From Oscillospiraceae bacterium (lineage in GTDB: Bacteria > Bacillota > Clostridia > Oscillospirales > Acutalibacteraceae): a DNA stretch of 64,000 nucleotides. Positions 22,976 through 56,938 of this stretch are shown piece after piece. The notes below the pieces were generated by a model. The model did no database searches. It saw only the letters and a program-made list of their open reading frames with translations, and was not told the DNA's origin. The position numbers were made by a program, and so were the translations under genes. Location: the NCBI GenBank assembly GCA_902769255.1, contig CACXOM010000005.1, positions 62,001-126,000 of the forward strand, written 5' to 3'. Position 1 is the stretch's first letter. Every line of letters begins with the position of its first letter.

Positions 22976-23051
22976 GCTGCTATGGCTCAGTCGGCAGAGC
23001 ACATCCTTGGTAAGGATGAGGTCACCGGTTCAAATCCGGTTAGCAGCTCCA
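22976..23051 (+). tRNA. tRNA-Thr (anticodon GGT), prophage integration site
   Basis: A complete cloverleaf is visible: acceptor GCTGCTA with TAGCAGC, D stem GCTC/GAGC, anticodon stem CATCC/GGATG around a TTGGTAA loop (anticodon GGT, reading ACC and ACU), and T arm ACCGG-TTCAAAT-CCGGT. Discriminator T is followed by an encoded CCA. The prophage reconstitutes the 3' half exactly, so the gene stays functional. The downstream terminator is now phage-derived. Confidence 0.97.
23007..23051 (+). repeat. attL core, 45-bp direct repeat (left copy)
   Basis: The 45 bases from the anticodon loop to the CCA end of tRNA-Thr recur perfectly at 58795-58839. They are the integration core of the prophage. Confidence 0.95.
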
Positions 23052-23056
23052 TAAAG

Positions 23057-23103
23057 AAAACCGCTTAAACCCTTTATTTACAAGGGTTTAGGCGGTTTTT
23101 TGT
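23057..23103 (+). terminator. Phage-supplied terminator for tRNA-Thr
   Basis: An 18-bp stem (23057-23074 with 23082-23099, one wobble) is followed by a T run. It lies inside the element, just after attL, and also faces the leftward integrase gene. It replaces the host terminator now found at 58843-58872. Confidence 0.8.
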
Positions 23104-23157
23104 TTTTTGCGGTTTTATATTCTTATATCTCGTAAGTGCTTATAAATTTTCTCTGTT

Positions 23158-23178
23158 CGTACCGTATAGCGTACCGTA
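23158..23178. repeat. Direct repeat CGTACCGTA x2, candidate integrase arm sites
   Basis: CGTACCGTA occurs at 23158-23166 and 23170-23178, 12 bp apart, between the att core and the integrase stop codon. Tyrosine integrases of Gram-positive elements often bind short direct repeats in this position. Binding here is inferred. Confidence 0.45.
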
Positions 23179-23180
23179 AA

Positions 23181-24275
23181 TTAAATAAGTCTTATTGCTG
23201 CTTTAAGTGTTTCTTGTGATTCGTGAATATAAATATTTGCGGTTGTTTCGTATTTTGAGTGGCCTATCAGTTTTTGCAGTTGTTCCGGTTCAACACCGGC
23301 GTTTTTACAAAGAGTAGCAAAAGTATGTCTTGTACAATGTGGTGTTAAGCGTGGGTTTTTATATTCTAATTTGCCGGTGGCGTTATTTTTTTGTGGCTGG
23401 TCTATTATTCCGAGTTCTGACAAAGCAGGGTAAAACTTACGCTTGCGAAAATTTGATGAATCATCATTAAACAAATAGTCGGTTGTGCTACTGTTATAAA
23501 AATACTTTACAAAATCTATTATTTTATCGCTTATGGGTACAAAGCGATTTTTGCCGGCTTGAGTTTTATTACCGCCTATGATATAGCCTTCATCTAAATT
23601 AACATTTTCTTTCTTAATGCTAAAAAGTTCATTAATACGAAAGCCGGTATAACATAGAATTAGTATTATTTGAATATTACGGTCAGCGGAATTTTGCCAT
23701 AATAGGTTTAATTCTTTTTCGCTGAATACTTCTCTTTCTTTAGTTTTACCTTTTGGCAAGGTGATAAACTGAGCATAATTTTTGTTGATGACATCATTCA
23801 TCATAGCATATTTACAAAGTTGCGAGCAAAGTTGCTTTATTTTTTCACATTGTGAACGAGAATATTTTTCGGAACATTGATTAACACAATTTTGATAATC
23901 TTTTGTTTTAAGCAGCCGCATTTTAGAAGAATAGAGGTCTGATAAGTATTTATAAGCGGTAGTGTAACCTTGAATACCGCTTTTTGTCAGCGTTGTAAAA
24001 TGCTCTTTACTCCACTTTTCGTAGATTTCAGACAAAGTGCAGTTGTATAAATCGGTAATTCTATCTTCATTGAACGAGTCAAGCGCCTGTTGTGCTTCTT
24101 TATAGGTGGGAAAGCAACCTATATAATTACTCTTTGTTCCCATTTTAGAATTTGGCGAATATGCAACATAATGATTATGAGTATAATCGCTTCGATAACG
24201 GATTGTTCCGGTGCCTTTAACTCTTCGTGGTTTCTTGCTTTTTGCCGCACCAATTGCAAAACAAAGAGCTGTCAT
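23181..24275 (-). CDS. int: Tyrosine-family phage integrase
   Basis: The 364-residue reading frame has an arm-binding AP2-like N-terminus (GTGTIRYRSDYTHN... GCFPTYKEAQQALDSF), a SAM-like core-binding domain at about 60-160, and a catalytic domain with Arg in CYTGFRINELF near 210, HCTRHTFATL near 313, LIGHSKYETT near 338 and the Tyr of NIYIHES near 347. It recombines attP with the tRNA-Thr site. The start at 24275 has no ribosome site. The well-placed start belongs to the overlapping zinc-ribbon frame at 24306, so the true N-terminus may come from a frameshift. Confidence 0.93.
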   Translation of the reverse strand: MTALCFAIGAAKSKKPRRVKGTGTIRYRSDYTHNHYVAYSPNSKMGTKSNYIGCFPTYKEAQQALDSFNEDRITDLYNCTLSEIYEKWSKEHFTTLTKSGIQGYTTAYKYLSDLYSSKMRLLKTKDYQNCVNQCSEKYSRSQCEKIKQLCSQLCKYAMMNDVINKNYAQFITLPKGKTKEREVFSEKELNLLWQNSADRNIQIILILCYTGFRINELFSIKKENVNLDEGYIIGGNKTQAGKNRFVPISDKIIDFVKYFYNSSTTDYLFNDDSSNFRKRKFYPALSELGIIDQPQKNNATGKLEYKNPRLTPHCTRHTFATLCKNAGVEPEQLQKLIGHSKYETTANIYIHESQETLKAAIRLI

Positions 24276-24306
24276 CTATTTCTTTTTTACATTTTTTGCA
24301 AAGCAT
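24217..24306 (-). CDS. Zinc-ribbon N-terminal frame of the integrase, +1 offset (29 aa)
   Basis: An ATG at 24306 with a TAGGTG site opens MLCKKCKKEI..., then FCNWCGKKQ, and stops at 24217. The encoded CxxC...CxxC ribbon matches the usual N-terminus of many clostridial integrases. The integrase frame continues (KKPRRVKGTGT) in the +1 frame near the AAAAAGC run. This is either a one-base insertion or programmed +1 frameshifting; as written, the two frames overlap by about 60 bases. Confidence 0.6.
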   Translation of the reverse strand: MLCKKCKKEIDDSSLFCNWCGKKQETTKS

Positions 24307-24319
24307 TTTTTTCACCTAC

Positions 24320-25837
24320 TTACTTTAATCTTTTAATATAAGTAATATATTCAAATTTTAAATCTAATTTAATGTTTTGTTTTTCAAAAAACTGTTTTGT
24401 TGTTTCTGATAAAATTACAGCAAGTTGTTCAGAAGTCATTTTATTATAATTCGGATAACTTAAAACAATATCAATTAGTTTGTTGTAACATTTTACGCAA
24501 AATCTATTATATTTTTTTAAATTTGTTGTTTCATTGAGATTACTTATTACCGCGCTTGCAGTACCTACGGTGAAGTCGTTAGCCCAAAAGTACATTATTT
24601 CATAACAAACAAGTATAAATGCAATGTGTTCATTTGAACAATTAAACTTATTTTCAATATGTTTATTATAAATGTTTATAAATTCATTTTTTATTTGTTC
24701 CGCAATTTTCAGACCTTTGGTTTTATCTGATTCAGACAATGATTGTTTATCTACAAGTAAATCATTTTTATTAAGATAATAATATATGTTTAAAAACCTA
24801 ATATACTCTTGTTTAGTGATTTTTTTAGGCTTTCCTTTGTTTGCACAAATTTTGCAGTAGTTTCCTTGAGTTGCAAAATCGAACTTTTCTATTGTAGCGT
24901 TGCAACAAAACGGTTTTCTATGTATTTTTTTGCCTCTTTGCGTGATAAATACTGTGTATTCGCCGTATTTGCCGATTTTAGGGTAATTTGGAATTGGCAA
25001 ATTGTTGTTATCAAATTCAATATCAACATTAGTGTTGTTTACAAGATTAAATAATTCTGACTTTGATTTATTGATATAGAACAAGTATTTTAGGATTTCT
25101 CTTTTCTTTAACAACTTCAACTTTAAATCGCGTTTGCGTTGCAATTCTTTCTGTTCAAAATCGCGCTGTTTTTGTTCTTCAATATATTTTATCTCTTCTT
25201 TTTTGTTTCGGTGTTTACAAATAAAATACCAAATAACTAATAATATCAAAAGAAAAGAAACTAAACTTATTAAGGCATATGAATAATATTTTAATGATAA
25301 AAATGCCGATACTGCCCAAGTTATTATAAAGCAGAATATTCCAATGATAATAGTCGGATTATCAATACCATTTGCAAACTTTTTAAAAAGTTTATATTTT
25401 AATGATTCTAAAATTTCACTTATCAATCCATAAACAAACCAGCCTAAAAAAAGAGTTATTAAAGGCGCGTATACTACAAAAATCCATAATGCGGGATTAC
25501 GAGGTTCTTCATTTGACTCATAGTCTTCATCATCATATGAATTATTATAATATATTTCTGATTTTGTTGTGGCTTTTTGTGATTTTTTATAATTTTTAGA
25601 TTTGTTATCTTTTGAATTTGAACTACTGTTGTTTTTGTTTTTTTTAGTCTTAACATCATAATCATACGGACAAATTCCATTTTCGTGTTGATGAGCAGGG
25701 TAGCCGTGATGATAATGATATTCGCCGGTACTTCGGTCATAGTGACCGCCGTTTGAATCGGTTCTGCCTTTATGTGCCGACACAGTCAGCGGAAGAAAAA
25801 ATAAAAGCAAAAATAATATCAATATTATTTTTTTCAT
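24320..25837 (-). CDS. YHYH-motif secreted/membrane protein in the lysogeny module
   Basis: The 505-residue protein starts with a signal peptide (residues 1-21, cut after VSA). A His-rich YHYH segment follows (GRTDSNGGHYDRSTGEYHYHHGYPAHQH at about 24-51; only its key YHYH core is diagnostic), then a Lys/Asn/Ser-rich linker and about three membrane helices at 115-215. A basic coiled coil and a cytoplasmic C-terminal part with paired cysteines (FCCN... CKIC) complete it. YHYH modules are common on secreted Gram-positive proteins. A surface protein expressed beside the repressor could alter the lysogen, for example by superinfection exclusion; that is inference. Confidence 0.65.
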   Translation of the reverse strand: MKKIILILFLLLFFLPLTVSAHKGRTDSNGGHYDRSTGEYHYHHGYPAHQHENGICPYDYDVKTKKNKNNSSSNSKDNKSKNYKKSQKATTKSEIYYNNSYDDEDYESNEEPRNPALWIFVVYAPLITLFLGWFVYGLISEILESLKYKLFKKFANGIDNPTIIIGIFCFIITWAVSAFLSLKYYSYALISLVSFLLILLVIWYFICKHRNKKEEIKYIEEQKQRDFEQKELQRKRDLKLKLLKKREILKYLFYINKSKSELFNLVNNTNVDIEFDNNNLPIPNYPKIGKYGEYTVFITQRGKKIHRKPFCCNATIEKFDFATQGNYCKICANKGKPKKITKQEYIRFLNIYYYLNKNDLLVDKQSLSESDKTKGLKIAEQIKNEFINIYNKHIENKFNCSNEHIAFILVCYEIMYFWANDFTVGTASAVISNLNETTNLKKYNRFCVKCYNKLIDIVLSYPNYNKMTSEQLAVILSETTKQFFEKQNIKLDLKFEYITYIKRLK

Positions 25838-25867
25838 TAAATACCCCTTTTTTATAAAAATTTCTTT

Positions 25868-26236
25868 TTATGCTTCAGCCAGTTTAGCCGAGTTAGTTTT
25901 TATATATTGCCCTGACAATGTCAGCGCTTCTGCCTGTGATAACAAAATATATTGCCCCTCTTCGTTGAGTTCACGAAAAGATTTTAATAGTTTTTGTTCG
26001 TCAGCGGTTAGTTCCTCTTTTATAGAGGGACTTTTTTTATTTGTGTCATTTCCGATTAAATAATCAATCGAAACATTAAAATAATCTGCGATTTTAGTGA
26101 GGGTATTAAATTCGGGCTTGTTGGTACCGTTTTCCCACATACCGACAGTTGATTGAGATACTCCGATTATATTTGCTAATTTTTGTTGTGATATTTTGTT
26201 GTTTTCTCTTAATTCTTTTAACCTTATTCTAAACAT
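25868..26236 (-). CDS. CI-like XRE-family phage repressor
   Basis: The 122-residue protein has an N-terminal helix-turn-helix (RLKELRENNKISQQKLANII, then GVSQSTVGMWENG at about residues 4-40) followed by FNTLTKIADYFNVSIDYLIG and a short C-terminal region. It lacks a LexA-like protease domain. The ATG at 26236 is chosen because AAGGTGG precedes it. It is transcribed leftward from a promoter overlapping operator 1, and it probably binds the four ATCATTTAAAATGAT-type sites. Confidence 0.88.
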   Translation of the reverse strand: MFRIRLKELRENNKISQQKLANIIGVSQSTVGMWENGTNKPEFNTLTKIADYFNVSIDYLIGNDTNKKSPSIKEELTADEQKLLKSFRELNEEGQYILLSQAEALTLSGQYIKTNSAKLAEA

Positions 26237-26258
26237 TTTTTCGCCACCTTTTTTGTTT

Positions 26259-26287
26259 ATAATATCATTAAAAATGATACAATTCAA
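26259..26287 (-). promoter_or_regulatory. Leftward repressor promoter
   Basis: On the minus strand, TTGAAT (26282-26287), a 17-bp spacer and TATTAT (26259-26264). Operator 1 (26264-26278) occupies the spacer, so autorepression is likely. Confidence 0.65.
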
Positions 26288-26369
26288 TATTTTTTAAAAA
26301 AATATCATTTAAAATGTTGACAAATCATTAAAAATGTGATATATTCTAAATATAATCATTTAAAATGAT
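26264..26369. promoter_or_regulatory. Four-operator lysogeny switch region
   Basis: Four 15-bp near-palindromes match ATCATTTAAAATGAT: 26264-26278 (ATCATTAAAAATGAT), 26304-26318 (ending TGTT), 26324-26338 (ending TGTG) and 26355-26369 (perfect). Start-to-start spacing is 40, 20 and 31 bp. Site 1 lies in the leftward promoter spacer, sites 2 and 3 on the rightward promoter, and site 4 just after the rightward start. The layout fits CI/Cro competition. Confidence 0.85.
26317..26345 (+). promoter_or_regulatory. Rightward early promoter
   Basis: TTGACA (26317-26322), a 17-bp spacer and TATATT (26340-26345). Operator 3 fills the spacer and operator 2 covers the -35 box. It drives the Cro-like gene and the early region. 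Confidence 0.8.
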
Positions 26370-26387
26370 TAAAATTGAGGTGAAAAA

Positions 26388-26570
26388 ATGACTAATATAA
26401 AAAAACTTAGAGAAAAAAGCGGTTTAAGTCAAATTGAACTTTCAAAGTTGCTTAATGTTGGACAATCGGCTGTTTCAATGTGGGAGAACGGAACGAATGT
26501 TCCAAAAACGGAAATGTTACCTAAATTAGCAAAAATATTTGGCTGTACAATTGATGAACTTTTTAAATAA
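26388..26570 (+). CDS. Cro-like XRE-family regulator
   Basis: The 60-residue protein is essentially one helix-turn-helix domain (IKKLREKSGLSQIELSKLLN, then VGQSAVSMWENG, then LAKIFGCTIDELFK). The recognition helix resembles that of the divergent repressor (QSTVGMWENG versus QSAVSMWENG), as expected if both read the same operators. GAGGTG precedes the ATG. It is first in the rightward early operon. Confidence 0.88.
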   Translation: MTNIKKLREKSGLSQIELSKLLNVGQSAVSMWENGTNVPKTEMLPKLAKIFGCTIDELFK

Positions 26571-26599
26571 GACAAGGTGAGTGGAGTGAGGCATTAAAA

Positions 26600-26809
26600 A
26601 TGATTACTGTAATTAAGCCTGAAAGGGCAAGCGAGATTTTAAAAGAAAACGGTTACACTTCGGCTTCACCGGTAAAAATCCGGCAAGGGCTTATTCAAGG
26701 GATTTTTCCTTTCGGTCAGGCAATTCAGATGAGAAGTGAAACGGTTTATGACATTTATTTGGAATTGCTTTTGAAGTGGATTGAGGAAAGGTCAGATAAA
26801 GAAAAATAA
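26600..26809 (+). CDS. Small early phage protein, 69 aa, excisionase/HTH-like
   Basis: It begins MITVIKPERASEILKENGYT and contains PVKIRQGLIQGIFPFGQAIQ. The pattern 'winged-helix-like opener, then GxFPFG' recurs in short clostridial phage proteins located right after cro. A DNA-binding or excisionase-like role is plausible from position but not shown by a clear motif. Confidence 0.6.
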   Translation: MITVIKPERASEILKENGYTSASPVKIRQGLIQGIFPFGQAIQMRSETVYDIYLELLLKWIEERSDKEK

Positions 26810-26823
26810 AGGAAGTGGAAGTA

Positions 26824-27069
26824 ATGATTGAATTGTTGGTTTTGTTTGTAATTGAGATTTGTGCGGCTGCGGTGATTATTTCGGTGATTGTCGGAGTCGG
26901 AGCGATAGCGTTACTTATTTTTCGGGCTTATTTTCGCCGAAAGGGTGAAAAACAAAGGCGCGGAAAAATAAATAACAATTTTAAAGAGCAAATGCGGGTC
27001 CTTAGAGAACCGCAGGTTTACAAAGAGGAATATAAATATGAAGTGCAACGAATGCGCCAAGGGGTTTAA
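26824..27069 (+). CDS. Small single-pass membrane protein, 81 aa
   Basis: One or two hydrophobic segments at about residues 2-35 (LLVLFVIEICAAAVIISVIV and following) are followed by a very basic cytoplasmic tail (FRRKGEKQRRGK). The ATG at 26824 has GGAAGTGG upstream. Function is unknown. The next small gene starts inside its 3' end. Confidence 0.6.
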   Translation: MIELLVLFVIEICAAAVIISVIVGVGAIALLIFRAYFRRKGEKQRRGKINNNFKEQMRVLREPQVYKEEYKYEVQRMRQGV

Positions 27070-27184
27070 TCAGCCTTTGGCTGAACAAACGCTTTGTTGT
27101 TGCAAAGACAACAAAGATTGTTATTTAAAATATGTGGACAAGGTTTGTAAACATTTTAAAAAAAGGAGCAATACAAAATGGTAG
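27038..27184 (+). CDS. Small Cys-rich protein, 48 aa
   Basis: ATG at 27038 follows GAGG by about seven bases. The product starts MKCNECAKGFNQPL and contains LCCCKDNKDC and a C-terminal VCKHFKKRS. Seven cysteines suggest a zinc-binding knuckle. It overlaps the genes on both sides (27069 and 27178), typical of a packed early operon. Function is unknown. Confidence 0.6.
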   Translation: MKCNECAKGFNQPLAEQTLCCCKDNKDCYLKYVDKVCKHFKKRSNTKW

Positions 27185-27603
27185 TAAAATTTAGAAAACA
27201 AATTGACTGTAACCTCGAACACGAGTTTAGAGATGTTCAGCAATTGCGTTTTGAAAATGGGCGTTTAAGTTTTAGTGACCCGAGAGGTAACGAAATAGGC
27301 TCTGAAATTATTTTAGATGAATGCAAAAGTTTTTTTGCTACGGATTTAGAAATTGGAGTTGAAAGACAAGAGAATTATCACAACGCATTTTCGGGAGTAG
27401 TAGACAAAAACGGTGAGAAAATTTACGAAGGCGACAAGGTAAGAGGCATTTTTTATCAGCAAATGCCGGTTGAGGCGGTTTGCAGATTTTGCGCCGAAAA
27501 AGGTGCTTTCGGGCTTGAATGGAAAAGAGGAAATGTGACACAATTTAATCCGTTCGCTTGTATGTGCAATGTGGAGTATGAGGTGATACCGGGTGAAGCT
27601 TGA
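27178..27603 (+). CDS. YopX-family phage protein
   Basis: The 141-residue protein carries the YopX core SGVVDKNGEKIYEGDKVRGI and the late EVIPG segment. YopX proteins are small early phage proteins of unknown function, first named from Bacillus phage SPbeta. AAAAGGAG precedes the ATG. The preceding Cys-rich gene stops seven bases inside it. Confidence 0.85.
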   Translation: MVVKFRKQIDCNLEHEFRDVQQLRFENGRLSFSDPRGNEIGSEIILDECKSFFATDLEIGVERQENYHNAFSGVVDKNGEKIYEGDKVRGIFYQQMPVEAVCRFCAEKGAFGLEWKRGNVTQFNPFACMCNVEYEVIPGEA

Positions 27604-27928
27604 CAGACAAAAACTTTGTTTAAATATGCCGGCGTTTTTGGTAGACACAAACGCGAGTTTCGGTCAAGACTGTATTGATATTGAGCAAATCATTATTAAA
27701 GGCGTTTTTGTGAAAGATAATGAAGTGAAAATTATATTCACGCGTTTTAACGCCGATAAGATGTCAGAACGCACGGATTATGAAAGTTTTGAAAATGTTT
27801 TTACCAGTGTTGGTGGTGCTATAATGCGAGCAAAGAGAATTTTAAGAGAAACAAAAGAAACAAATAAAAGGATTATTTTAAGAAATATTGATTATCAATT
27901 TTTTGAGGGTGAAAAAGATGAAACTTAA
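27593..27928 (+). CDS. Hypothetical early phage protein, 111 aa
   Basis: I do not recognise it. The probable start is GTG at 27593, overlapping the YopX gene by 11 bases. It contains SFGQDCIDIEQIIIKGVFVK and TDYESFENVFTSVGGAIMRA and looks soluble. It overlaps the next gene's start. Confidence 0.5.
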   Translation: MKLDRQKLCLNMPAFLVDTNASFGQDCIDIEQIIIKGVFVKDNEVKIIFTRFNADKMSERTDYESFENVFTSVGGAIMRAKRILRETKETNKRIILRNIDYQFFEGEKDET

Positions 27929-28103
27929 TTGGGTAAATCAAGGCAAAAACGAAACTATTACATTTAAAAATATTTCAAGAATTAAAGTACAAAATAATAC
28001 ACTTTATGTACCCGAAGAAGAAAGCATTGGTAATGATTTCAAATGCTTTAAGTTTGCGCTTGCTATAAGCGAGTGCAAATGTATTGTTATTGAAGATGAT
28101 TAA
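27918..28103 (+). CDS. Hypothetical early phage protein, 61 aa
   Basis: ATG at 27918 follows GAGGGTG, inside the end of the previous gene. The product (MKLNWVNQGKNETITFKNIS... VIEDD) is short, beta-rich and soluble. Function is unknown. Confidence 0.5.
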   Translation: MKLNWVNQGKNETITFKNISRIKVQNNTLYVPEEESIGNDFKCFKFALAISECKCIVIEDD

Positions 28104-28236
28104 AGAAAAGATTTTTCCTTTGACTCTGATTGTTTTAGATTTTCTTGCTGCCATACCTTATGTTTATGTAGGCGACCCTAAAAAAGCAGTTTATTGGATT
28201 GCTGCCGGTGTGCTTAATATTTGTGTTACATTTTAA
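28097..28236 (+). pseudogene. Frameshifted small membrane protein
   Basis: The first frame reads MIKEKIFPLTLIVLDF. After a one-base loss near 28141 a second frame continues with AAIPYVYVGDPKKAVYWIAA and GVLNICVTF, then stops at 28236. Joined, the two halves give a two-helix protein of about 46 residues, of a type I recall from many clostridial prophages ('LIVLD.. AA..Y...GD...AVYW.AA.VLN..VTF'). As written, the first frame stops after about 26 codons. Confidence 0.55.
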
Positions 28237-28281
28237 AAAATTTTGGTTGCGCCACACAACTTTTTGAAGGAGCGTGTAAAG

Positions 28282-28434
28282 ATGAATGATTTTACTCCGA
28301 GCATTTGCAGAAAATGCCGAAAATTTAAAAAGTGCAAAGTTACAATTAGTTCAAACGGGTATTCCTATTGCGGTAAGTGGAACGATTGGTTCCACGAGCA
28401 TTGGTCGGCTATCAGAAAGGCGGCGGTAAGATGA
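28282..28434 (+). CDS. Small Cys-rich protein, 50 aa
   Basis: ATG at 28282 follows GAAGGAG. The product starts MNDFTPSICRKCRKFKKC and has a later YSYCGKW. The CxxC...C...C arrangement suggests a small zinc-binding protein. The stop overlaps the next ATG (ATGA). Function is unknown. Confidence 0.6.
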   Translation: MNDFTPSICRKCRKFKKCKVTISSNGYSYCGKWNDWFHEHWSAIRKAAVR

Positions 28435-28691
28435 AATTACACGAGATAAAGATTGAAGAGCGATATGCTCGAGAAAAACTCGATAAGATAAAATCGTTTG
28501 AAATTCGCAAAAATGACCGTGAATATGAAATAGGCGATTTGGTGGTATATAAAGTAGTACCGGATATTGAGGGGTTTTGCGATTTTAAAGTGATAGGCAA
28601 ATTGGAAAAGAAAGTTTTTAGAATTGTAAACATTACAGATTTTGCGCAAACTGACAATTATATTGTTTGGCAGGAAAAGGAGTTGAAATAA
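28431..28691 (+). CDS. DUF3850 (ASCH/PUA-like) domain protein
   Basis: The 86-residue protein opens MKLHEIKIEERYAREKLDKI and has KSFEIRKNDREYEIGDLVVY, the characteristic 'FEIRKNDR.. GD' core of DUF3850, a PUA-fold family common in phages and thought to bind nucleic acid. Its start is coupled to the previous stop. An RNA-binding role fits a region rich in structured RNA, but that link is inference. Confidence 0.8.
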   Translation: MKLHEIKIEERYAREKLDKIKSFEIRKNDREYEIGDLVVYKVVPDIEGFCDFKVIGKLEKKVFRIVNITDFAQTDNYIVWQEKELK

Positions 28692-28942
28692 TGAGCGTAA
28701 AAGAACTTATAAAACAACTTAAAAAGTTTAACAAAAATGCTGAAGTTAAAATAAGTTTTAACAACGGTAAAGAATTTGATGAATTTCTTATCGGGTATTC
28801 GTTCTATTTTAAAACTACCAAGCAAAGCAGAATTAGAGATTGGTTAAAGAAATTTTGGGTTTTATATTTGATTTCATTGAAAATCTCTGACTCAAAAAGA
28901 AAATGTGATGAAGTTTGTATTGATGTACAAAAAGAGAGATGA
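28691..28942 (+). CDS. Hypothetical early phage protein, 83 aa
   Basis: ATG at 28691 overlaps the preceding TAA. It begins MSVKELIKQLKKFNKNAEVK, an opener shared by many small phage proteins. A basic middle part and a hydrophobic segment (FWVLYLISLKIS) follow. Function is unknown. Confidence 0.55.
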   Translation: MSVKELIKQLKKFNKNAEVKISFNNGKEFDEFLIGYSFYFKTTKQSRIRDWLKKFWVLYLISLKISDSKRKCDEVCIDVQKER

Positions 28943-28948
28943 GAAAAT

Positions 28949-29257
28949 ATGCAAAGTATTTTTGTTTCTTATAATGTAAAGAATTATCGGGCGAACAAAT
29001 ACAAAATTAACATAATGCACCCTGTAATTAATGAATTGTATCGTGCTTATAAATCGCAAAAGGGTATTCCTTATTTTGCGCCGATTTCAGATAAGCAAAG
29101 AAAAGAGTTTGAAAATATTGTTTTGCGCTCTGATATTAACGACAATGACGATATTGAAGAGGCTAAAAAGAAGTTTGAAAGCGCAAAGAGTCAGAAAAAA
29201 AGCGGGTATAGTTCTTCTGATGTTCAAAAACTTATAAATAAATTAAACAGAATTTAG
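28949..29257 (+). CDS. Hypothetical early phage protein, 102 aa
   Basis: I do not recognise this protein. It is Lys-rich with an N-terminal globular part (MQSIFVSYNVKNYRANKYKI) and a charged helical C-terminal half (EEAKKKFESAKSQKKSG). It is the last gene before the non-coding stretch carrying the Cas12a-type repeat. Confidence 0.55.
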   Translation: MQSIFVSYNVKNYRANKYKINIMHPVINELYRAYKSQKGIPYFAPISDKQRKEFENIVLRSDINDNDDIEEAKKKFESAKSQKKSGYSSSDVQKLINKLNRI

Positions 29258-29293
29258 GCGGTTACAAATCACACAAATCAAAAATACATTTTA

Positions 29294-29312
29294 AATTTCT
29301 ACTATTGTAGAT
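29294..29312 (+). CRISPR. Solitary Cas12a (type V-A) crRNA-handle repeat; not an array
   Basis: The 19 bases AATTTCTACTATTGTAGAT are an exact Cas12a crRNA 5' handle: invariant AATTTCTAC...GTAGAT with the stem TCTAC/GTAGA (29298-29302 with 29307-29311) and a TATT loop, a loop variant I recall from known Cas12a repeats. The upstream part of a full 36-nt repeat is not evident. I found no second copy by eye, and there is no cas gene in the window. A weak promoter-like pair (TTACAA 29262-29267, 17 bp, TACATT 29285-29290) would start transcription about at the handle. The downstream bases 29313-29335 could act as a guide. Confidence 0.7.
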
Positions 29313-29321
29313 AAACTTTTT

Positions 29322-29560
29322 CCTATGACCGTTTAAAGATAGGGCAGGAAAAATTTTGTAGTGTAAAAAAGGTAATCAACAAAAAAGGCTGACCTGCCCC
29401 AGCCTTGTCCGATTTTAGCCTCTGACTTTCTGCCATTAGTCAGCGGTTTAAAATATATTTGCTTTAAGGGCGGAAAGCAAATAAAAAGACAATTAAATAA
29501 CAAGGTATTTCCTGTATAAATTTTGGCTATATGCGGATAAACCGCCCTTATCCGCAAACA
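29322..29560 (+). ncRNA. Candidate structured non-coding RNA with loop complementarities
   Basis: No gene fits here. Hairpins in order are: 29322-29326/29339-29343; AAGGCTG 29385-29391 with CAGCCTT 29400-29406; CTGACT 29422-29427 with AGTCAG 29438-29443; a 10-bp stem 29456-29465 with 29474-29483; and a 9-bp stem 29532-29540 with 29548-29556. The loop at 29393-29399 (CCTGCCC) complements GGGCAGG at 29342-29348. The loop AAGGGCGG (29466-29473) complements CCGCCCTT (29542-29549). Two such long-range pairings suggest a folded RNA. Its class is unknown to me, and its ends are approximate. Confidence 0.5.
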
Positions 29561-29577
29561 CACAAGAAAGGTGAAAT

Positions 29578-29769
29578 ATGGATAACTTTATAATAGTTGC
29601 GATAATGGTAGTTGCCGGTGTTGTGATAGGTTACAATATCGGAACGATTAGACAAAAAAAGAAAGACTGCGAGCGAGTAAAGTTTGCCGAAAATAAAGTT
29701 CGGCGTATGCAACAAATTATGAGAGATGAGAAAATAAACAATCCTATGGATTTTAGAGAGAGGGATTAA
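29578..29769 (+). CDS. Small single-pass membrane protein, 63 aa
   Basis: One helix at about residues 4-22 (FIIVAIMVVAGVVIGYNIG) is followed by a basic, helical cytoplasmic tail (RQKKKDCERVKFAENKVRRM). AAAGGTG precedes the ATG, directly after the structured region. Function is unknown. Confidence 0.6.
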   Translation: MDNFIIVAIMVVAGVVIGYNIGTIRQKKKDCERVKFAENKVRRMQQIMRDEKINNPMDFRERD

Positions 29770-29771
29770 AA

Positions 29772-30011
29772 GTGGCAAGGCGTGGGAACGGGTATGTATG
29801 CTATTGCAAATATTGCGGTGATGAGTTTACTTCTTGGGATTTTTTGCAAGAAGTTTGCAAAAAGCAAAAGTGCCGAAAATTATATAAAAAATCACTTCGG
29901 GCAAATTCTGCACGGGTGAGTATTGAGCAAGTTGTGCGACTCTCTTACAGAGAGGGCGTTCATTACGGGCAGATGAGTCTGTTTGTTGATGAAGGGATTA
30001 AAACTTGGTGA
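29772..30011 (+). CDS. Small zinc-finger-like protein, 79 aa
   Basis: A GTG start follows the previous stop by two bases. The product contains YCKYCGDEF and, after about 15 residues, VCKKQKCRKLY, so C-x2-C...C-x4-C could bind zinc. A basic helix and SYREGVHYGQMSLF follow. A nucleic-acid-binding role is likely but unspecified. Confidence 0.6.
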   Translation: MARRGNGYVCYCKYCGDEFTSWDFLQEVCKKQKCRKLYKKSLRANSARVSIEQVVRLSYREGVHYGQMSLFVDEGIKTW

Positions 30012-30016
30012 AAAAT

Positions 30017-30214
30017 ATGAAAACAAAAATTGTTATTACTTTTGATGATGACGGTATGTGCTATATAAAAACTACAGGTTTAACGCTGAAAGATTTATAT
30101 GATACAGTAAGGTGCATTTCAAAATATGCGTTTGAAGTTTGTGAGACAGATTTTCAAAGGAAAACTATAATAAACGCAGTAGAAAACTCAAAAAAAGAAA
30201 TAATGAATAATTAG
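30017..30214 (+). CDS. Hypothetical early phage protein, 65 aa
   Basis: ATG at 30017 is preceded by GGTGA; alternative upstream GTG and TTG starts lie at 30008 and 30005. The product (MKTKIVITFDDDGMCYIKTT...) looks like a small alpha/beta protein. It is the last gene before the rep leader region. Function is unknown. Confidence 0.5.
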   Translation: MKTKIVITFDDDGMCYIKTTGLTLKDLYDTVRCISKYAFEVCETDFQRKTIINAVENSKKEIMNN

Positions 30215-30217
30215 GAC

Positions 30218-30330
30218 AATAACAAAGGCGGTTTTTTTCAACTTCTAACATTTAATAATTTTTTTACGGACTGAATTTTCATAATCATAGTTTACTTCCT
30301 TTTTAAATATTTTTTTCCGCCTTTGTTATT
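30218..30330. repeat. 14-bp inverted repeat enclosing 85 nt
   Basis: Bases 30218-30231 and 30317-30330 are perfect reverse complements (AATAACAAAGGCGG arm). T runs border both arms on the inside. No reading frame lies between. It opens the 547-base non-coding stretch upstream of rep and could form a cruciform or a long-range RNA stem. Confidence 0.6.
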
Positions 30331-30340
30331 AATATATTGT

Positions 30341-30369
30341 TTTGCACGGGGTTTTTTTCCCCGTGCAAA
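30341..30369. repeat. 11-bp GC-rich hairpin with T7 loop
   Basis: TTTGCACGGGG (30341-30351) pairs perfectly with CCCCGTGCAAA (30359-30369) around seven T. No T run follows on either strand, so it does not look like a terminator. It is a candidate origin or RNA structure. Confidence 0.55.
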
Positions 30370-30452
30370 GCAAAAACATATTAGATTTATTAAAATTAAT
30401 AAACCTAAATTATTGATTTTAATAAGTTTGATAGTTTTAGAACCTATACAAT

Positions 30453-30513
30453 ATAATACACAAAAAATATAAGGCAACGGCGGTTGCCTTGACGGGCTTG
30501 TATTGTGTATTAT
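30453..30513. repeat. Nested double hairpin upstream of rep
   Basis: An 11-bp outer stem (30453-30463 with 30503-30513) encloses a perfect 8-bp stem (30471-30478 with 30483-30490) with a GGCG loop. It lies in the non-coding rep leader and may be part of a rolling-circle origin or a regulatory RNA. Confidence 0.55.
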
Positions 30514-30615
30514 CTTTAGGACAAAATTTTGAAAAAATTCAAAAAATTTGGCTTTTGCCGGTTAAGAGGATAGGGCTACGCTGAGGAGCGACCCGAGCGC
30601 TTAAACGGATTTTAG

Positions 30616-30686
30616 CATAAACGGTGTAAAGACGGCGGGTAAGGTGATAATTTTATTCGCCGTCAGCCGAAACAATACCGTTTATG
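30616..30686. repeat. Nested hairpin just before rep, candidate origin or leader
   Basis: A 10-bp outer stem (30616-30625 with 30677-30686) encloses a 7-bp stem GACGGCG/CGCCGTC (30631-30637 with 30658-30664). It ends 60 bases before the rep ribosome site. A preceding segment (30573-30593) can form a smaller CGCT-GAGG-AGCG hairpin. The placement fits a double-strand origin or control of rep translation. Confidence 0.5.
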
Positions 30687-30761
30687 GAAAACAAGAAAGC
30701 GAAAAACCTTGGGGGTTTGGGGGCAAAGCCCTCAAGAGAAAAAACAAAGGAGAAAGAAAAA

Positions 30762-31541
30762 ATGGGAAAAAGAGTGATTTCACGCCGAGCAGAATATAAC
30801 TACGGCAATTACAAAGAAATTGCTGTTTTCCCTGTGTATAGCGGCAGCGGTAGAAGATACAGAGAAGAAAAACGCGCTGTCAGCCGAAAAGCGCAAAAAG
30901 AGTTGAACCGAAAAAACCGCATTAAAAAGATTTTTAGATTGCTTAACGGCAACTTTTCGCATAAAGATTATTTTTTGACGCTCACTTATGACAAAAAGAG
31001 TGTTCCGAAAGATGTAACGCAAGCGCAAAAGGATTACAGAGAGTTTATCCGCGCACTACGCAGACTATATTCAGCGCAAAACAAGCCGTTAAAATATATG
31101 GCTTGGATTGAAAAGGGTGTTGAGAAAGGCAGACTTCATCATCACCTTGTTATTTCGGGCGGTGTAAGTAGAGAAAAAATTGAGGATTTGTTTAAAAAGG
31201 GGTTTGCTGACTGCAAAAGACTGCGCCCCAAAAATGACGACTTAATGGGACTTGCGGAATATTTTGCGAAAGACCCGAAAGGCAAGAGGACATTTACCTG
31301 CTCGAAAAACCTTGACAGGACTTGTTTAATGCCTGTCGTTCGCGATAATTGTGTTGCAAAACACAAAATCAAAAAAATTATTGAGAATTACGAGGACAAG
31401 GAAATGTTCGAGAGAATGTATCCCGGTTATGAACTTATTAGGTGCGAAACACGACTTAACGAGTATTCTCGCGCTGTAAGTGTTGAAATAATACTACGCA
31501 AAAAAGGCTGTTATGGCTACAATACTTACTTATCAGACTGA
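30762..31541 (+). CDS. rep: HUH rolling-circle replication initiator (Rep)
   Basis: The 259-residue protein shows the HUH endonuclease order: motif I YFLTLTYDK near residue 70, motif II GRLHHHLVISGG near 123 with metal-binding histidines, and motif III AEYFAKDPKGKR near 165 with the likely nicking Tyr and a Lys four residues on. HUH Reps nick an origin and start rolling-circle replication. The ATG at 30762 has AAAGGAG upstream; an earlier ATG at 30684 lies within a hairpin and lacks a site. No primase, helicase or polymerase gene is present in the prophage. Confidence 0.85.
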   Translation: MGKRVISRRAEYNYGNYKEIAVFPVYSGSGRRYREEKRAVSRKAQKELNRKNRIKKIFRLLNGNFSHKDYFLTLTYDKKSVPKDVTQAQKDYREFIRALRRLYSAQNKPLKYMAWIEKGVEKGRLHHHLVISGGVSREKIEDLFKKGFADCKRLRPKNDDLMGLAEYFAKDPKGKRTFTCSKNLDRTCLMPVVRDNCVAKHKIKKIIENYEDKEMFERMYPGYELIRCETRLNEYSRAVSVEIILRKKGCYGYNTYLSD

Positions 31542-31576
31542 TTTTTCAATCGGTCATTTTCAGAGGAGTTTTTTGT

Positions 31577-32005
31577 ATGAATTTTGAGCAAAAAAAGGCT
31601 AAACTAAAACGATACCGCAAATTAACGCAAAAAAGAGTTAATTTAAAGCAGGATTTAGAGGAGTTCGAGATAAGGGCTTTAACTCGAGCGACTCATATTA
31701 CGCCGCCGAGCGCTGATGATGTGGTGCGTTCGGGTGGACAAAGCATTACTAAAGCCGAAAAATATGCCGAGCGTGAAGAGGATTATAAATTACTTCGGGC
31801 GGAGTATGACAAGATAAGCCGTGAGTGTTCAAAAATTTTGCGTGCGATTTTTAACATTTCGGATTTAGATTTGCAAAATGTGGTTTACGCTTATTATGTG
31901 CTTGGAATGAGTTTTAAAGAAATTTCTTATTCGCAGCATATTTCGGAAGTTACGGCTAAAAGGTGGAGAGATAAGGGCGTTAATATTTTAAATTTTAAAA
32001 AATGA
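31577..32005 (+). CDS. ArpU/RinA-like late transcription regulator
   Basis: The 142-residue protein has a coiled N-terminal half (KLKRYRKLTQKRVNLKQDLE) and a C-terminal sigma-70 region-4-like helix-turn-helix (VVYAYYVLGMSFKEISYSQH, then SEVTAKRWRDKGV). Such proteins switch on phage late operons. It sits directly upstream of the packaging genes. Its stop codon overlaps the first GATACTC repeat of the putative late promoter, so it probably acts on that site. Confidence 0.85.
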   Translation: MNFEQKKAKLKRYRKLTQKRVNLKQDLEEFEIRALTRATHITPPSADDVVRSGGQSITKAEKYAEREEDYKLLRAEYDKISRECSKILRAIFNISDLDLQNVVYAYYVLGMSFKEISYSQHISEVTAKRWRDKGVNILNFKK

Positions 32006-32046
32006 TACTCGGTGATACTCAAAGATACTTTTTTGTGTGTTACAAT
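32004..32046 (+). promoter_or_regulatory. Putative late promoter with three 10-bp-spaced activator repeats
   Basis: GATACTC occurs at 32004-32010 and 32014-32020 and GATACTT at 32024-32030, exactly one helical turn apart. Eleven bases after the last comes an extended -10 (TG-T-TACAAT; TACAAT at 32041-32046) with no -35 box at 32018-32023. The repeats occupy the place of the -35 element, as expected for activation by the upstream ArpU-like protein. Confidence 0.65.
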
Positions 32047-32055
32047 AAGAGTGTG

Positions 32056-32100
32056 AAAAAAGCGGTAAACGAACCTAAAAGCGTTTGTTTATCGCTTTTT
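32056..32100 (+). terminator. Hairpin at the start of the late transcript
   Basis: A 14-bp stem with one wobble (32057-32070 with 32087-32100) ends in five T and lies between the late promoter and terS. It could be an attenuator, or a stem that stabilises the 5' end. Confidence 0.5.
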
Positions 32101-32123
32101 GTAATAAAAGGCGAGGTGTAAAG

Positions 32124-32576
32124 GTGAAAAAAGTTAACCTTACCGAGAAAAAAGAAAAGTTTATTTTCGCTTATGCGCGTCAAGAGCATAAAAACGCTAC
32201 CGCCGCCGCAAGACAAGCGGGTTACAGCGAAAAGACGGCAAAGCAAAAAGCGAGTGCTTTACTCAAAGATGAGGTAGTAGCCTCGTGCGTGCGTGTGTGC
32301 GAACAATTTATGCGCGAGCAAAAATGCGAGAATGAGGTAAACTCGGATTTTGTGTTGCAAAAGCGCATTAAAATTCTTGAAAGTTGTTTGCAGGTAGTGC
32401 CGAAAAAGGTTTGGGACTACGAAAAAAGAGAGTATACCGACAACGGCAAGGTAATAGTTGACCCGAGAGCCGCCTGTATGGTGCTTTCGGACATTGAAAA
32501 GAGTTTGCCGGAAGAGTCGGCCGACAAACATTCGCAAGAGGTTTTAGATAAACTTTTTGAAATTTTATCAAAATAA
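32124..32576 (+). CDS. terS: Terminase small subunit
   Basis: The 150-residue protein opens VKKVNLTEKKEKFIFAYARQ and continues HKNATAAARQAGYSEKTAKQ, then KASALLKDEVV. This is the helix-turn-helix DNA-recognition region of Terminase_2-type small subunits. The rest is helical for ring assembly. GTG at 32124 follows GAGGTG. It is the first gene after the late promoter; the large subunit lies 2.3 kb further on. Confidence 0.88.
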   Translation: MKKVNLTEKKEKFIFAYARQEHKNATAAARQAGYSEKTAKQKASALLKDEVVASCVRVCEQFMREQKCENEVNSDFVLQKRIKILESCLQVVPKKVWDYEKREYTDNGKVIVDPRAACMVLSDIEKSLPEESADKHSQEVLDKLFEILSK

Positions 32577-32585
32577 TGCTAAAAG

Positions 32586-32614
32586 GTCACAAGGCAATAG
32601 GCTTTGTGATTTTT
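32586..32614 (+). terminator. Terminator-like hairpin after terS
   Basis: A 9-bp stem with one wobble (32586-32594 with 32600-32608) is followed by six T. It may reduce readthrough between terS and the scaffold gene. Confidence 0.6.
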
Positions 32615-32650
32615 TAATACAGAAAAATCAAATAGAAAGGAGCGTTTTTG

Positions 32651-33517
32651 GTGAGTGAAAATCTTAATGTTGCAATGAGTGAAAACGGTGAGGGTACGGC
32701 TGAAAACGGTGAGGCTTTGCAGGACACAGCAAACGAGGGCACACGAACAAGCGACGAGGGCGAAAACGATACACAAGAAACGCTAAAAACAGGTGAATCG
32801 GACGGCGAGGATACGGCCGAAGAGTCAGACGGCGTGGATACGGCCGAAGAGTCAGACGGCGAAGAGGGCGAGCCGGTCAGCGAAGAAGTATTTAACTTCG
32901 ATGACGGCACACAGGTTAAAAAATCGCAAGTGCAGGCTATTATTCGAGAAAATCAAAAGTATCAAGATATGGCAGAAAATATTGAACTGCTTGAGATGAT
33001 AGCCGCTTCTTCACAACGAAGTGACGGGACTGAATACGAAAATGTAACAGAGTTTGTTCAGTCGCTGAAAGAAGCGATTGACAACAATTTGTACGAAGAA
33101 TGTTTAGACCTTGCTGACGGTAACGAAGAAGTAGCCGATGAACTGTTTGAGAGTCGCAAAGCAAAGCGTGATAAGCGGTGGAATGATATTAAGTTGGACC
33201 GTGAGTCGCAAAACGCTAAAAAAGCGCAGGAAACTACCCAGCGTGTAGCAAGCGAGTTTGAGGCTTTACAAAAAGAGTTTCCCGAGTATAAAGACTATTT
33301 GGGACTTGAAAAGGAAGTTAAAGACTATGCAATGCAAAACAATGTTTCTTTGCTTACGGCAAAACTTCTGATTGACAGAAGAAATGCTAATGCTACGCAA
33401 AAACAGCTTAACAAACAAGCCGAAAATAAAAAGGCTTCGCTCGGTTCTAAACAAAGCGACAAAATTGACGGCGAAGGTTTGTTAATAGAGGCAATGCGAC
33501 AAGGCTTTCAGAATTGA
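32651..33517 (+). CDS. Probable capsid scaffolding protein
   Basis: The 288-residue protein is acidic at the N-terminus (runs of E, D, G, T and S, including two DTAEES repeats) and helical and charged in the rest, ending in a Lys/Gln-rich tail. The order terS, acidic helical protein, major capsid matches scaffold position in many phages. FNFDDGTQVKKSQVQAIIRE resembles the central part of such proteins. GTG at 32651 has AAAGGAG eight bases upstream. There is no enzymatic motif. Confidence 0.7.
   Translation: MSENLNVAMSENGEGTAENGEALQDTANEGTRTSDEGENDTQETLKTGESDGEDTAEESDGVDTAEESDGEEGEPVSEEVFNFDDGTQVKKSQVQAIIRENQKYQDMAENIELLEMIAASSQRSDGTEYENVTEFVQSLKEAIDNNLYEECLDLADGNEEVADELFESRKAKRDKRWNDIKLDRESQNAKKAQETTQRVASEFEALQKEFPEYKDYLGLEKEVKDYAMQNNVSLLTAKLLIDRRNANATQKQLNKQAENKKASLGSKQSDKIDGEGLLIEAMRQGFQN
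32801..32854 (+). repeat. 27-bp tandem repeat in the scaffold gene
   Basis: Two units (32801-32827 and 32828-32854) differ by one base and encode DG(E/V)DTAEES. A third partial unit follows. Confidence 0.8.
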
Positions 33518-33570
33518 TTTGAAAATTTAAAATAAACAAAAATTCAAATTAAGAAAAGAGGTTTTAAGTT

Positions 33571-34515
33571 ATGCCAATGAACGATTTAGAGTTTAGAACT
33601 CAAATGACAGGCGAAATTGACAAAGTTATTAAACATAAAAGCGTAACCGCATTTATGGAAGATAACGGTTTTAAAGCAAAATTTGTAGGAACAAAAGAAG
33701 TTAAAATTCCCGATGTTGATATGTTAGCACTCGGCGATTATGACAGAGAGGCAGGCTTTGCAAAAGGCAGCGTTACTGTTAAAAACACCGTGTATTCGTT
33801 GACTCAAGACAGAGGTAGAGAATTTAACATTGACCGTGAGGACGATGACGAAACCGGCGTTGCAAATTTAACCGGTGAAGTTGTTTCGGAGTTTAACCGC
33901 ACTAAAGTTGTACCGGAAATTGACGGTTATTCGATTTCTAAAGTTGCAGCAGTAGCGGCAGCACAAGAAAACATTATTACAACCGAAGATTACCCGATTG
34001 CAACTAAACCTTATGAGGCGTTTGACGAATTGTTTACAAAAGTAAACGAAATTACCGGTGGCGGTATGGAATTAGTAGCACTTGTGTCTTATGACTATTG
34101 GGCAGCGCTTAAAAAATCACCCGAAATTAAAGCAATTATTAATCAGGGTGAATTTAAAAACGGTGAAGTTACCCGAATCGTTAAGAAAATTGACAATGTG
34201 TCGATTATTCCTGTTCCGACTGAAAGTATGTACACCGTTTACGAAACTCTTGACGGTAAAGCAGACACAGAAGGTTATGCCGGCGGTTTAGTTCCGGGTT
34301 CGGGCGCTAAAAAAATTAAAATGTTAATGCTCTCAAAAGACACCGCAAGAAGAGTAAGAAAACTTGAAAAAGTTAAAATCTTTACTCCGGACGAAAACCA
34401 AGATATGGACGCTTGGAAAATTCAAGAGCGTTTATATTATGATGTGCTTGTTAAAAAATCACGCAGGGTAATTCCTCACGCGTTGATTGAAGACGGCGCA
34501 ACTCCGTCAGCGTAA
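33571..34515 (+). CDS. Major capsid protein
   Basis: The 314-residue protein begins MPMNDLEFRTQMTGEIDKVI. It contains FVGTKEVKIPDVDMLALGDY, SLTQDRGREFNIDREDDDET and a late AWKIQERLYYDVLVKKSRRV, a pattern of HK97-fold coat proteins that lack a protease domain. AGAGG precedes the ATG. It lies after the putative scaffold gene and before a small Lys-rich gene. Confidence 0.8.
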   Translation: MPMNDLEFRTQMTGEIDKVIKHKSVTAFMEDNGFKAKFVGTKEVKIPDVDMLALGDYDREAGFAKGSVTVKNTVYSLTQDRGREFNIDREDDDETGVANLTGEVVSEFNRTKVVPEIDGYSISKVAAVAAAQENIITTEDYPIATKPYEAFDELFTKVNEITGGGMELVALVSYDYWAALKKSPEIKAIINQGEFKNGEVTRIVKKIDNVSIIPVPTESMYTVYETLDGKADTEGYAGGLVPGSGAKKIKMLMLSKDTARRVRKLEKVKIFTPDENQDMDAWKIQERLYYDVLVKKSRRVIPHALIEDGATPSA

Positions 34516-34538
34516 AAATTTTTTGAGGTGAAAAACAT

Positions 34539-34751
34539 ATGTTTTTGATGAAAAACGCAGAGGGTAACCTAATTAAGAAAGTTGCAAATGAAAGAAAAAA
34601 AGAAGAACTTGAAGAATTAGGTTATTCGGTAATTGCCGAAAAAAGCGATGTCAGCGAGAAAAAAGATGTTCCCGTTGAAAAAGAAAAGGCTAAATCTAAA
34701 AAAGCGCCTGTAAAAAAAGCAAGCGCTAAAAAAGATATTCCTGTTGACTAA
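34539..34751 (+). CDS. Small Lys-rich protein after the capsid gene, 70 aa
   Basis: It begins MFLMKNAEGNLIKKVANERK with an ELEELGYSVIAE segment. The tail is built of Lys/Ala/Val repeats (KSKKAPVKKASAKKD), reminiscent of histone-like tails. Short proteins of this type follow capsid genes in several Firmicute phages; a DNA-binding or capsid-accessory role is only inferred. Confidence 0.6.
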   Translation: MFLMKNAEGNLIKKVANERKKEELEELGYSVIAEKSDVSEKKDVPVEKEKAKSKKAPVKKASAKKDIPVD

Positions 34752-34756
34752 ATAAT

Positions 34757-34780
34757 AGGGCGGATTATTCCGCCCTTTAT
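34757..34780 (+). terminator. Terminator-like hairpin after the capsid block
   Basis: An 8-bp GC-rich stem (34757-34764 with 34769-34776) has a TTAT loop and is followed by a short T-rich stretch. It may lower expression of terL relative to the capsid gene. Confidence 0.6.
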
Positions 34781-34865
34781 TTGTCGTTTTAAAAGTTGTG
34801 ATTTTAAAGGTTTTAAAGTTAGAATTTTTTAAACGAGGCGGTGAAGAACGATAAAGATTGAAAAA

Positions 34866-36176
34866 TTGAGCGAAAAGCAGAAGAAAGTTTTAAAATATCC
34901 GTTTTTAAGAAGTGAAGAAAATCTGATTTGTGACGGTGCGGTGCGTTCGGGTAAGACTGTTACAATGCTTATTTCTTTTTTTCTGTGGAGTATGCGTGAA
35001 TTTAGCAACAACAAGTTTGCTATTTGTGGTAAGACGGTTCAATCAGTCGAGAGAAATATTATTGCGATTATACCCGAGATTGAGATTTTAACTGAATTTT
35101 ACAAGTTTTCTTATAAGTCGAGCAAGCATATTTTAGAGGTCAGCGGTTACGGCAAGAAAAATTATTATTACATTTTCGGTGGCAAAGATAACAGTTCTTA
35201 TGCTTTAATTCAAGGTATGACGCTTTCGGGATTGTTTTTTGACGAAGTAGCATTACAGCCCGAAAATTTTGTTGAGCAGGCTATTGCAAGAACGATTACT
35301 ATAAGAAACTCAAAAAAGTTTTTTAACTGTAACCCCGAGCACCCGGAGCATTGGTTTTATAAAAATTATATTCTTGATTCAGACGGCGAGAATGTTAAAA
35401 ACTCTTATCATTTACATTTTTTGATGAGCGATAACCCGATTTTGAGTGATGATGACATTGAGAAAATGAAAAATCGGTGGTCGGGAGTGTTTCATCAGCG
35501 GTATATTGAAGGAAAATGGGTAGTTGCTGAAGGACTTGTGTACCCCGATTTTGATAATATTGTAGAATTTCAAGAGTTTTTTGATACAATTCACAGAAAA
35601 TATTACATTTTAGGTGAAGACGGCGAAAAGTATTACGGAAAATATTACTTATCTGTCGACTATGGAACAGCAAACCCTTTTTCTTGCGGGCTTTGGTTTG
35701 TAACAAAAACTTTCTGTGTGAGAGTTAAAGAGTATTATTACAACTCAAGAGAAAAACAAAAACAAAAGACGGATAAACAATATTTAGATGATTTACAAGA
35801 ATTTATCGGAAAAAGACCGATTGAAAGAGTAGTTGTTGACCCTTCAGCGCTTTCGTTCATTAACGAACTTCGGCAAGCAGGCTTTTTAGTAATTTCGGCA
35901 AAGAATGATGTAATTGACGGAATAAGGACTGTTGACAGGTTTTTGCAGACAAAAGAGGTTCTGATAAATAAAAAGTGTGAGGACTCTATTAGAGAATTTG
36001 GGCTTTATTCTTGGGACGATAAGCAGACGGCGGACAAGGTAGTTAAAGACTATGACCACGCTATGGACGATATAAGATATTTTTGTTACACGATTTTAAG
36101 ATATTTACCGCCTTTTAGCGGTAGCGGTGAAACAAAAATTACAAATACAACGGTTATTTCTGATGATTGGATTTAA
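34866..36176 (+). CDS. terL: Terminase large subunit
   Basis: The 436-residue packaging ATPase/nuclease has Walker A CDGAVRSGKT near residues 22-31, Walker B GLFFDEVAL near 122-130, then NCNPEHPEHWFYKN, and nuclease acidic motifs in YLSVDYGTANPF near 262 and YDHAMDDIRYF near 400. No ATG fits the N-terminus. TTG at 34866 gives MSEKQKKVLKYPF, but the best ribosome site (GAGG at 34835) lies further upstream, so an ATT or ATA start near 34851-34857 is possible. Confidence 0.93.
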   Translation: MSEKQKKVLKYPFLRSEENLICDGAVRSGKTVTMLISFFLWSMREFSNNKFAICGKTVQSVERNIIAIIPEIEILTEFYKFSYKSSKHILEVSGYGKKNYYYIFGGKDNSSYALIQGMTLSGLFFDEVALQPENFVEQAIARTITIRNSKKFFNCNPEHPEHWFYKNYILDSDGENVKNSYHLHFLMSDNPILSDDDIEKMKNRWSGVFHQRYIEGKWVVAEGLVYPDFDNIVEFQEFFDTIHRKYYILGEDGEKYYGKYYLSVDYGTANPFSCGLWFVTKTFCVRVKEYYYNSREKQKQKTDKQYLDDLQEFIGKRPIERVVVDPSALSFINELRQAGFLVISAKNDVIDGIRTVDRFLQTKEVLINKKCEDSIREFGLYSWDDKQTADKVVKDYDHAMDDIRYFCYTILRYLPPFSGSGETKITNTTVISDDWI

Positions 36177-56933: not shown

Positions 56934-56938
56934 TAGAT

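Follow-up and report, generated by a model that had tools for sequence, protein, structure and literature searches.

The early region of a prophage in a gut bacterium carries, at 29294-29312 on the + strand, the sequence AATTTCTACTATTGTAGAT, an exact and solitary type V-A (Cas12a) crRNA handle with a 4-5 bp stem and a 4-nt loop. I consider it likely, at a probability of roughly 0.6 on the comparisons presented below, that this element is a handle-only Cas12a decoy carried on the early mRNA. In crRNA processing, the 19-nt handle is what Cas12a recognises; the enzyme cuts the RNA just 5' of it and retains the 3' piece as crRNA.

A Cas12a handle between early genes of a prophage

The original prediction held that an exact handle stands alone in a 320-base gap and that a chance match is improbable, and both statements are borne out. 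The window, that is, the whole stretch of 64,000 nucleotides that was analysed, holds a single exact copy of the handle. The runner-up, at 2595-2613, has 3 mismatches, and shuffled windows searched with up to 3 mismatches tolerated gave a mean of 0.01 matches. Under Markov models of orders 0 to 3 fitted to the window, the chance expectation for the exact handle on both strands is 5.3e-6 at order 0 and 5e-7 at orders 2 and 3. The copy at 29294-29312 is also the sole exact one in the prophage's own genome (1,791,303 bases in 35 contigs, 99.7% complete). Freeing the loop base and allowing up to 2 mismatches yields one extra site there, which is taken to be background because the reversed control word yields 3 sites. 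Among 300 genomes of the family and 391 of the class, two samples that both include the own genome and have some other genomes in common, the exact handle was found nowhere besides the own genome. RNA folding in context predicts that 29294-29312 forms the hairpin of a Cas12a 5' handle (probability 0.97).

The element lies in an intact-looking prophage of 35.8 kb (23007..58839) integrated in tRNA-Thr, as judged from the tRNA call, the att repeats and the phage proteins. The prophage ends are marked by 45-bp att repeats, which correspond to the tRNA-Thr 3' end (23007-23051 and 58795-58839). Protein matches identify an integrase (23181-24275) and an HTH repressor-like protein (25868-26287), and a small HTH protein (26388-26570) has RstR-like matches below the cutoff. 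The nearest gene with a close relative encodes the replication initiation protein (30684..31541, + strand; 76% identity to its counterpart in genome G246). Terminase, portal, major head protein, endolysin, regulator proteins and small early genes were recognised as well, and 42714-53837 encodes a prophage protein of 3707 aa with a MuF C-terminal domain and an LPD23 domain. No cas family was found among the early-region proteins scanned, and handle scans of the window and of the own genome gave neither a second repeat nor an adjacent array of the kind that makes a mini-array. The handle is thus solitary, with neither array nor cas gene alongside, and intergenic on a mobile element.

According to the ORF list, the 320-base gap that holds the handle (29258..29577) separates two ORFs of the same strand in the early operon. 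The upstream ORF (28949..29257, + strand, 102 aa) matches phrog_34937, a PHROGs family of unknown function, and its protein has matches in 19 of 398 genomes, the own included and the others distant. The downstream ORF (29578..29769, + strand, 63 aa) has no family match in PHROGs or NCBIfam. The handle starts 36 bases past the stop of the 102-aa ORF, and 265 bases separate its end from the next same-strand start codon. Of the listed ORFs of at least 50 aa, just one lies wholly inside the gap, on the strand opposite the handle; this 76-aa GTG frame I take to be spurious. A promoter belonging to the handle itself was considered and rejected, since 71% of random positions have a promoter-like pair as good as, or better than, the best one within 70 nt upstream of it.

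Downstream of the handle, fold prediction gives a stem-loop (29317..29353, + strand) that pairs UUUUUCCU (29317-29324) with AGGAAAAA (29346-29353) and would hold part of the would-be seed. The fold of 29294-29460 (167 nt) has a z of -2.3 for the whole stretch; for the first 45 nt 3' of the handle z is -1.33, and the predicted mean pairing of the first 8 nt is 0.59. The same gap contains a terminator-like hairpin on the - strand (29385-29406; 1 found, shuffles giving 0.5). The - strand ahead of it shows no convincing gene, and the hairpin perhaps belongs to a small antisense RNA. Another hairpin, with a perfect 8-base stem (GCGGATAA/TTATCCGC), is found at 29533-29556, shortly ahead of the next gene.

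Exact handles in viral DNA

Because many windows had presumably been scanned before the present one was chosen, I examined the behaviour of exact matches in IMG/VR. The exact handle occurs there in 55 stretches, as against 2 and 3 for control words of the same composition (stem-permuted and reversed, respectively), each control word representing one distinct context; the other three loop bases together account for 48 further stretches. Removal of near-duplicates and of sites with fewer than 45 bases downstream left 75 distinct contexts (all loops, window excluded), 44 of which have the present loop. Non-coding positions, defined as lying outside ORFs of at least 100 aa, make up 62 of these 75 contexts, compared with 22% of the bases of the same loci. 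So most exact handles in viral DNA are not coding, nor are they chance matches, because they exceed the matched controls by about 20:1. The same excess, together with the 5e-7 to 5e-6 matches expected per window, makes it unlikely that an AT-rich gap merely spells the handle by chance or as an unrelated hairpin with another role or none, even though the 3-kb stretch around the handle is only 33% GC, a convincing upstream repeat half and a promoter are both lacking, the host has no type V-A system, the sampled family and class genomes contain no other exact handle, and the present window was presumably one of many that had been looked through.

Of the 63 non-coding contexts obtained when the window is included, 8 have the starting motif of a full V-A repeat (1.6 expected after shuffling) and 55, the window being one, lack it. 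By this start-motif test, the handle-only form is the common one among exact matches. Certain handles are found close ahead of a start codon, and others seem to belong to stand-alone units with hairpins and a terminator. Downstream structure with z below -1.5 was predicted in 20 of 63 non-coding contexts versus 2 of 13 coding ones, an excess that, in my reading, partly reflects terminators. A seed-locking hairpin was tried as a mark of the class and rejected, seed pairing above 0.5 being predicted in 24 of 63 non-coding versus 6 of 13 coding contexts.

A search of phages with the gap DNA returned 5 records, in short pieces, the one over the handle being the methanogen virus MetMV. In this Methanosarcina virus, 23 intergenic bases (MK170447.1 14855-14877) are identical to window positions 29291-29313, handle included. 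Leptospira phage LE1 has a 22/23 match to the handle region, likewise between genes. Loci L012 and L019 hold two exact handles each, about 40 bases apart, and L056 has a real pair of V-A-like repeats, separated by 63 bases, of which the first contains the exact handle and the second departs from it by one change. In L014, L022, L024, L035, L052 and L134, a repeat end, GTGGATTGAAAC (GTGGATTAAAAC in L024 and L052, which are apparently one context), stands directly 5' of the solitary handle, and in most of these loci a hairpin and a terminator-like stretch then follow the handle. In L053, GTTTGAGA is found upstream of the handle. I take the repeat ends upstream of all these handles to be type I-like. 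Joined to a V-A handle, such an end could possibly give a single RNA that mimics two CRISPR types.

Gain and loss within a phage family was followed from L021, L034 and L049, in which the handle lies upstream of the gene preceding a capsid-like gene. A search by neighbouring protein gave a family of 10 members (relatives L187-L196), with the handle in 3 of the 10; these 3 carriers are L021, L034 and L049, the phages that supplied the query, and the fraction is not unbiased. The other 7 have AT-rich sequence in the place of the handle between well-conserved flanks. The handle thus looks like an accessory that comes and goes in this family. Between related phages, identity is 95-100% in the handle versus 33-100% in the 40-nt flanks, the two pairs at 95% reflecting a different loop or an alignment gap. 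This comparison was rejected as evidence of selection, since the loci had been fetched by means of the handle; of the two tests, the one that started from the neighbouring protein has the smaller bias.

The bases on either side of the handle

A handle followed by a 3' guide suffices for Cas12a, and 29313-29335 (+ strand) had originally been put forward as a possible working guide against a rival element. It could thus be a one-spacer guide, or a short pseudo-guide, that would direct a host Cas12a to the silencing of a gene or against a rival element. This proposal found no support: there was no convincing target, and in particular no protospacer with the fitting TTTV flank in the phage collection, the own genome or the window. 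A phage search with 29313-29345 returned 49 records, every one of which is named as a staphylococcal phage; the best 10 of the 49 are 19-nt matches (E 0.3) that start at guide base 6 and miss the first 5 guide bases. A plasmid search with the handle and its flanks returned 35 records, 15 of them Moraxella (best E 0.6), none of the 35 being exact across the entire handle. Within the window, no other site shares more than 10 initial guide bases, and the two sites that share 10 are flanked by GTTT and TTGA. The own genome does contain a site (G000:C16:12848-12870) that matches 20 of the 23 guide bases, with 3 mismatches and the first 7 bases intact, where 0.011 such sites are expected at assumed base frequencies of 0.32/0.18. 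Its flank is ATTT, however, not TTTV, and it apparently lies in a host coding stretch, in a frame that runs off the fetched piece. The match is probably a coincidence. With the first 8 bases of the segment themselves paired to a predicted mean of 0.59, a working guide seems very unlikely.

CreR-type pseudo-crRNAs consist of a degenerate repeat unit and a short guide, and regulate cas genes. The window element is like them in that a repeat-derived unit is followed by what could be a short guide, and unlike them in that it has no cas gene nearby and no guide match of more than 10 bases elsewhere in the window.

On the 5' side, the 17 bases that would form the first half of a complete repeat (29277..29293, + strand) are not convincingly repeat-like. 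Compared with five V-A 5' halves, they are identical at just 7 to 10 of the 17 positions. The best of these matches, 10/17 to the repeat 5' half of family genome G123, is equalled by 3.6% of shuffles. Together with the two-handle loci L012 and L019 and the two-repeat locus L056 of IMG/VR, it could point to a decaying remnant of a captured V-A repeat-spacer unit, formerly a mini-array. A level of 3.6% in one of five comparisons is weak evidence, however, and even decay would not yield a perfect handle while the rest is gone, so that such a remnant is highly improbable.

Least probable of all is a cis-acting leader switch, in which Cas12a would cut or cover the early mRNA at the handle and alter expression of the downstream gene, the site serving as a Cas12a sensor: 20 of the 62 non-coding IMG/VR contexts have, within the next 60 nt in the sense direction, the start of an ATG ORF of 60 aa or more, against 10 of 62 in antisense, but the excess over control positions is modest (32% versus 23%) and the next start codon in the window is 265 nt away.

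CRISPR systems and prophage relatives in the family

A model search for Cas12a gave no match in the own genome and none in 14 control genomes; the same model detected Cas12a in family genomes. The own genome carries a type II-A CRISPR system with Cas1, Csn2 and at least 6 repeats. Self-targeting by the spacers of this system was considered and rejected after a check of five of them, the best showing 8 mismatches of 30. Of 300 family genomes, 3 gave a clear and 1 a weak Cas12a match, and none was detected in the 3 other same-genus genomes searched. The handles at the three clear loci are one loop base off the window handle (CTGTTG in two, CTTTTG in one), and no V-A array with exactly the window's loop was found in the 300 family and 391 class genomes sampled. 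A potential Cas12a opponent is present in the family, outside the own genome and the three genus members searched.

The one close relative of the prophage that was found is in G246 (Ruminococcaceae bacterium RUG11873, RUG presumably standing for rumen genome), on a contig that stops about 0.3 kb short of the handle site. When the gap DNA was compared with 9 chosen genomes, G246 alone gave a match. The replication protein has matches in 25 of 148 genomes, the own included, and in one distant viral contig; the 102-aa upstream protein gave no match in one search and, in another, the 19 of 398 genomes mentioned above, and a capsid alignment yielded no relative. No handle-like hairpin was seen in 59 loci taken from relatives of two neighbouring genes, a set in which some loci overlap, most are distant and have 1.5-kb flanks, and those of G246 stop short of the site.

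Comparison with known CRISPR-derived elements

The solitary V-A repeats RacrVA1-3 act as RNA anti-CRISPRs and inhibit a type V-A system (Camara-Wilpert et al. 2023, PMC10651486). As described there, solitary repeat units of this kind resemble the window element in that each is a single V-A repeat-derived sequence in intergenic prophage DNA, with neither array nor cas genes, and RacrVA1-3 share with it the proposed role of a crRNA mimic that occupies Cas proteins. Compared by description, not by sequence, the window element is unlike RacrVA1-3 in being the 19-nt mature handle alone. The published search demanded at least 90% coverage, at least 90% identity and at least 41.1 bits (PMC10651486). 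Judged from these published SRUFinder thresholds, the window element is not a near-complete repeat, and a handle-only form would be passed over by the search because an exact 19-nt match amounts to 36 bits. Of the published prophage repeat units whose host has a cas operon, 83% match the host subtype (PMC10651486). A host of the same subtype is thus usual, not required; the window host is of the mismatched subtype II-A, with no Cas12a match. Because it falls short of a near-full repeat and its host subtype is mismatched, the element is not filed here as a solitary repeat unit of the published type. It is probably a handle-only variant that works like the published V-A solitary repeats.

Viral CRISPR mini-arrays, which are described in inter-virus competition, contain one or two spacers, which mostly target related viruses (PMC11656645). 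By that description, the window element shares with mini-arrays that it is crRNA-like, forms part of a mobile element and would borrow host Cas proteins, and differs from them in that there is a single handle and the target searches gave nothing next to a fitting PAM. Among the titles and abstract openings consulted, no published account of handle-only units was found. RNA anti-CRISPRs are already known, and reduction to the handle alone is probably the new element of the present case.

Discussion

The decoy could operate as follows. Rightward transcription of the early operon would yield an early mRNA that includes the handle. Where the cell has a type V-A system, its Cas12a would be expected to bind the handle RNA, cut it before the handle and keep the 3' piece. 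The resulting complex would be idle, since no fitting target was found for the downstream segment, whose seed can partly pair up in a stem, and each idle complex would remove one Cas12a molecule from the real guides. Since the system in the present host is of type II-A, the opposing Cas12a would belong to another strain of this host or to one of its relatives.

The idea that the RNA titrates Cas12a was already part of the original prediction, which looked to the host for the enzyme. Its core is supported by an exact handle far beyond chance, non-coding and in the sense orientation of the early operon, by the excess of viral handles over controls and their non-coding placement, by the precedent of RacrVA1-3 (PMC10651486), by the coming and going of the handle in the L021 family, and by Cas12a in 3 of 300 family genomes. 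The host part found no support: there is no Cas12a match in the own genome, where the system is II-A, or in the 3 other genus members searched, and the 83% subtype agreement of published prophage units likewise counts against the decoy. Also against it are that no family or class array in the samples has the present loop, that the handle has no good promoter of its own, that the 59 loci from relatives contain no handle-like hairpin, and that seed pairing is not a mark of the class.

A wider proposal, which I hold tentatively and at somewhat less than even odds, is that in phages and prophages across bacteria, and in at least one methanogen virus, the handle alone may serve as a minimal RNA anti-CRISPR in any transcript, the phage's own mRNA leaders included, since Cas12a trims its own RNA. 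Such handles would form a large class missed by searches for full repeats. Phage families would acquire and lose them, and some handles would be fused to a type I-like repeat end, with which one RNA could block two CRISPR types. The window element would be an early-operon member of this class.

Cas12a tools are concerned as well, in that the enzyme could be titrated by handles that happen to occur in transcripts. Should the handle be sufficient by itself, ordinary transcripts tagged with 19 nt would rank with the smallest conceivable anti-CRISPRs, and the number of phages that resist Cas12a by means of RNA would have been underestimated.
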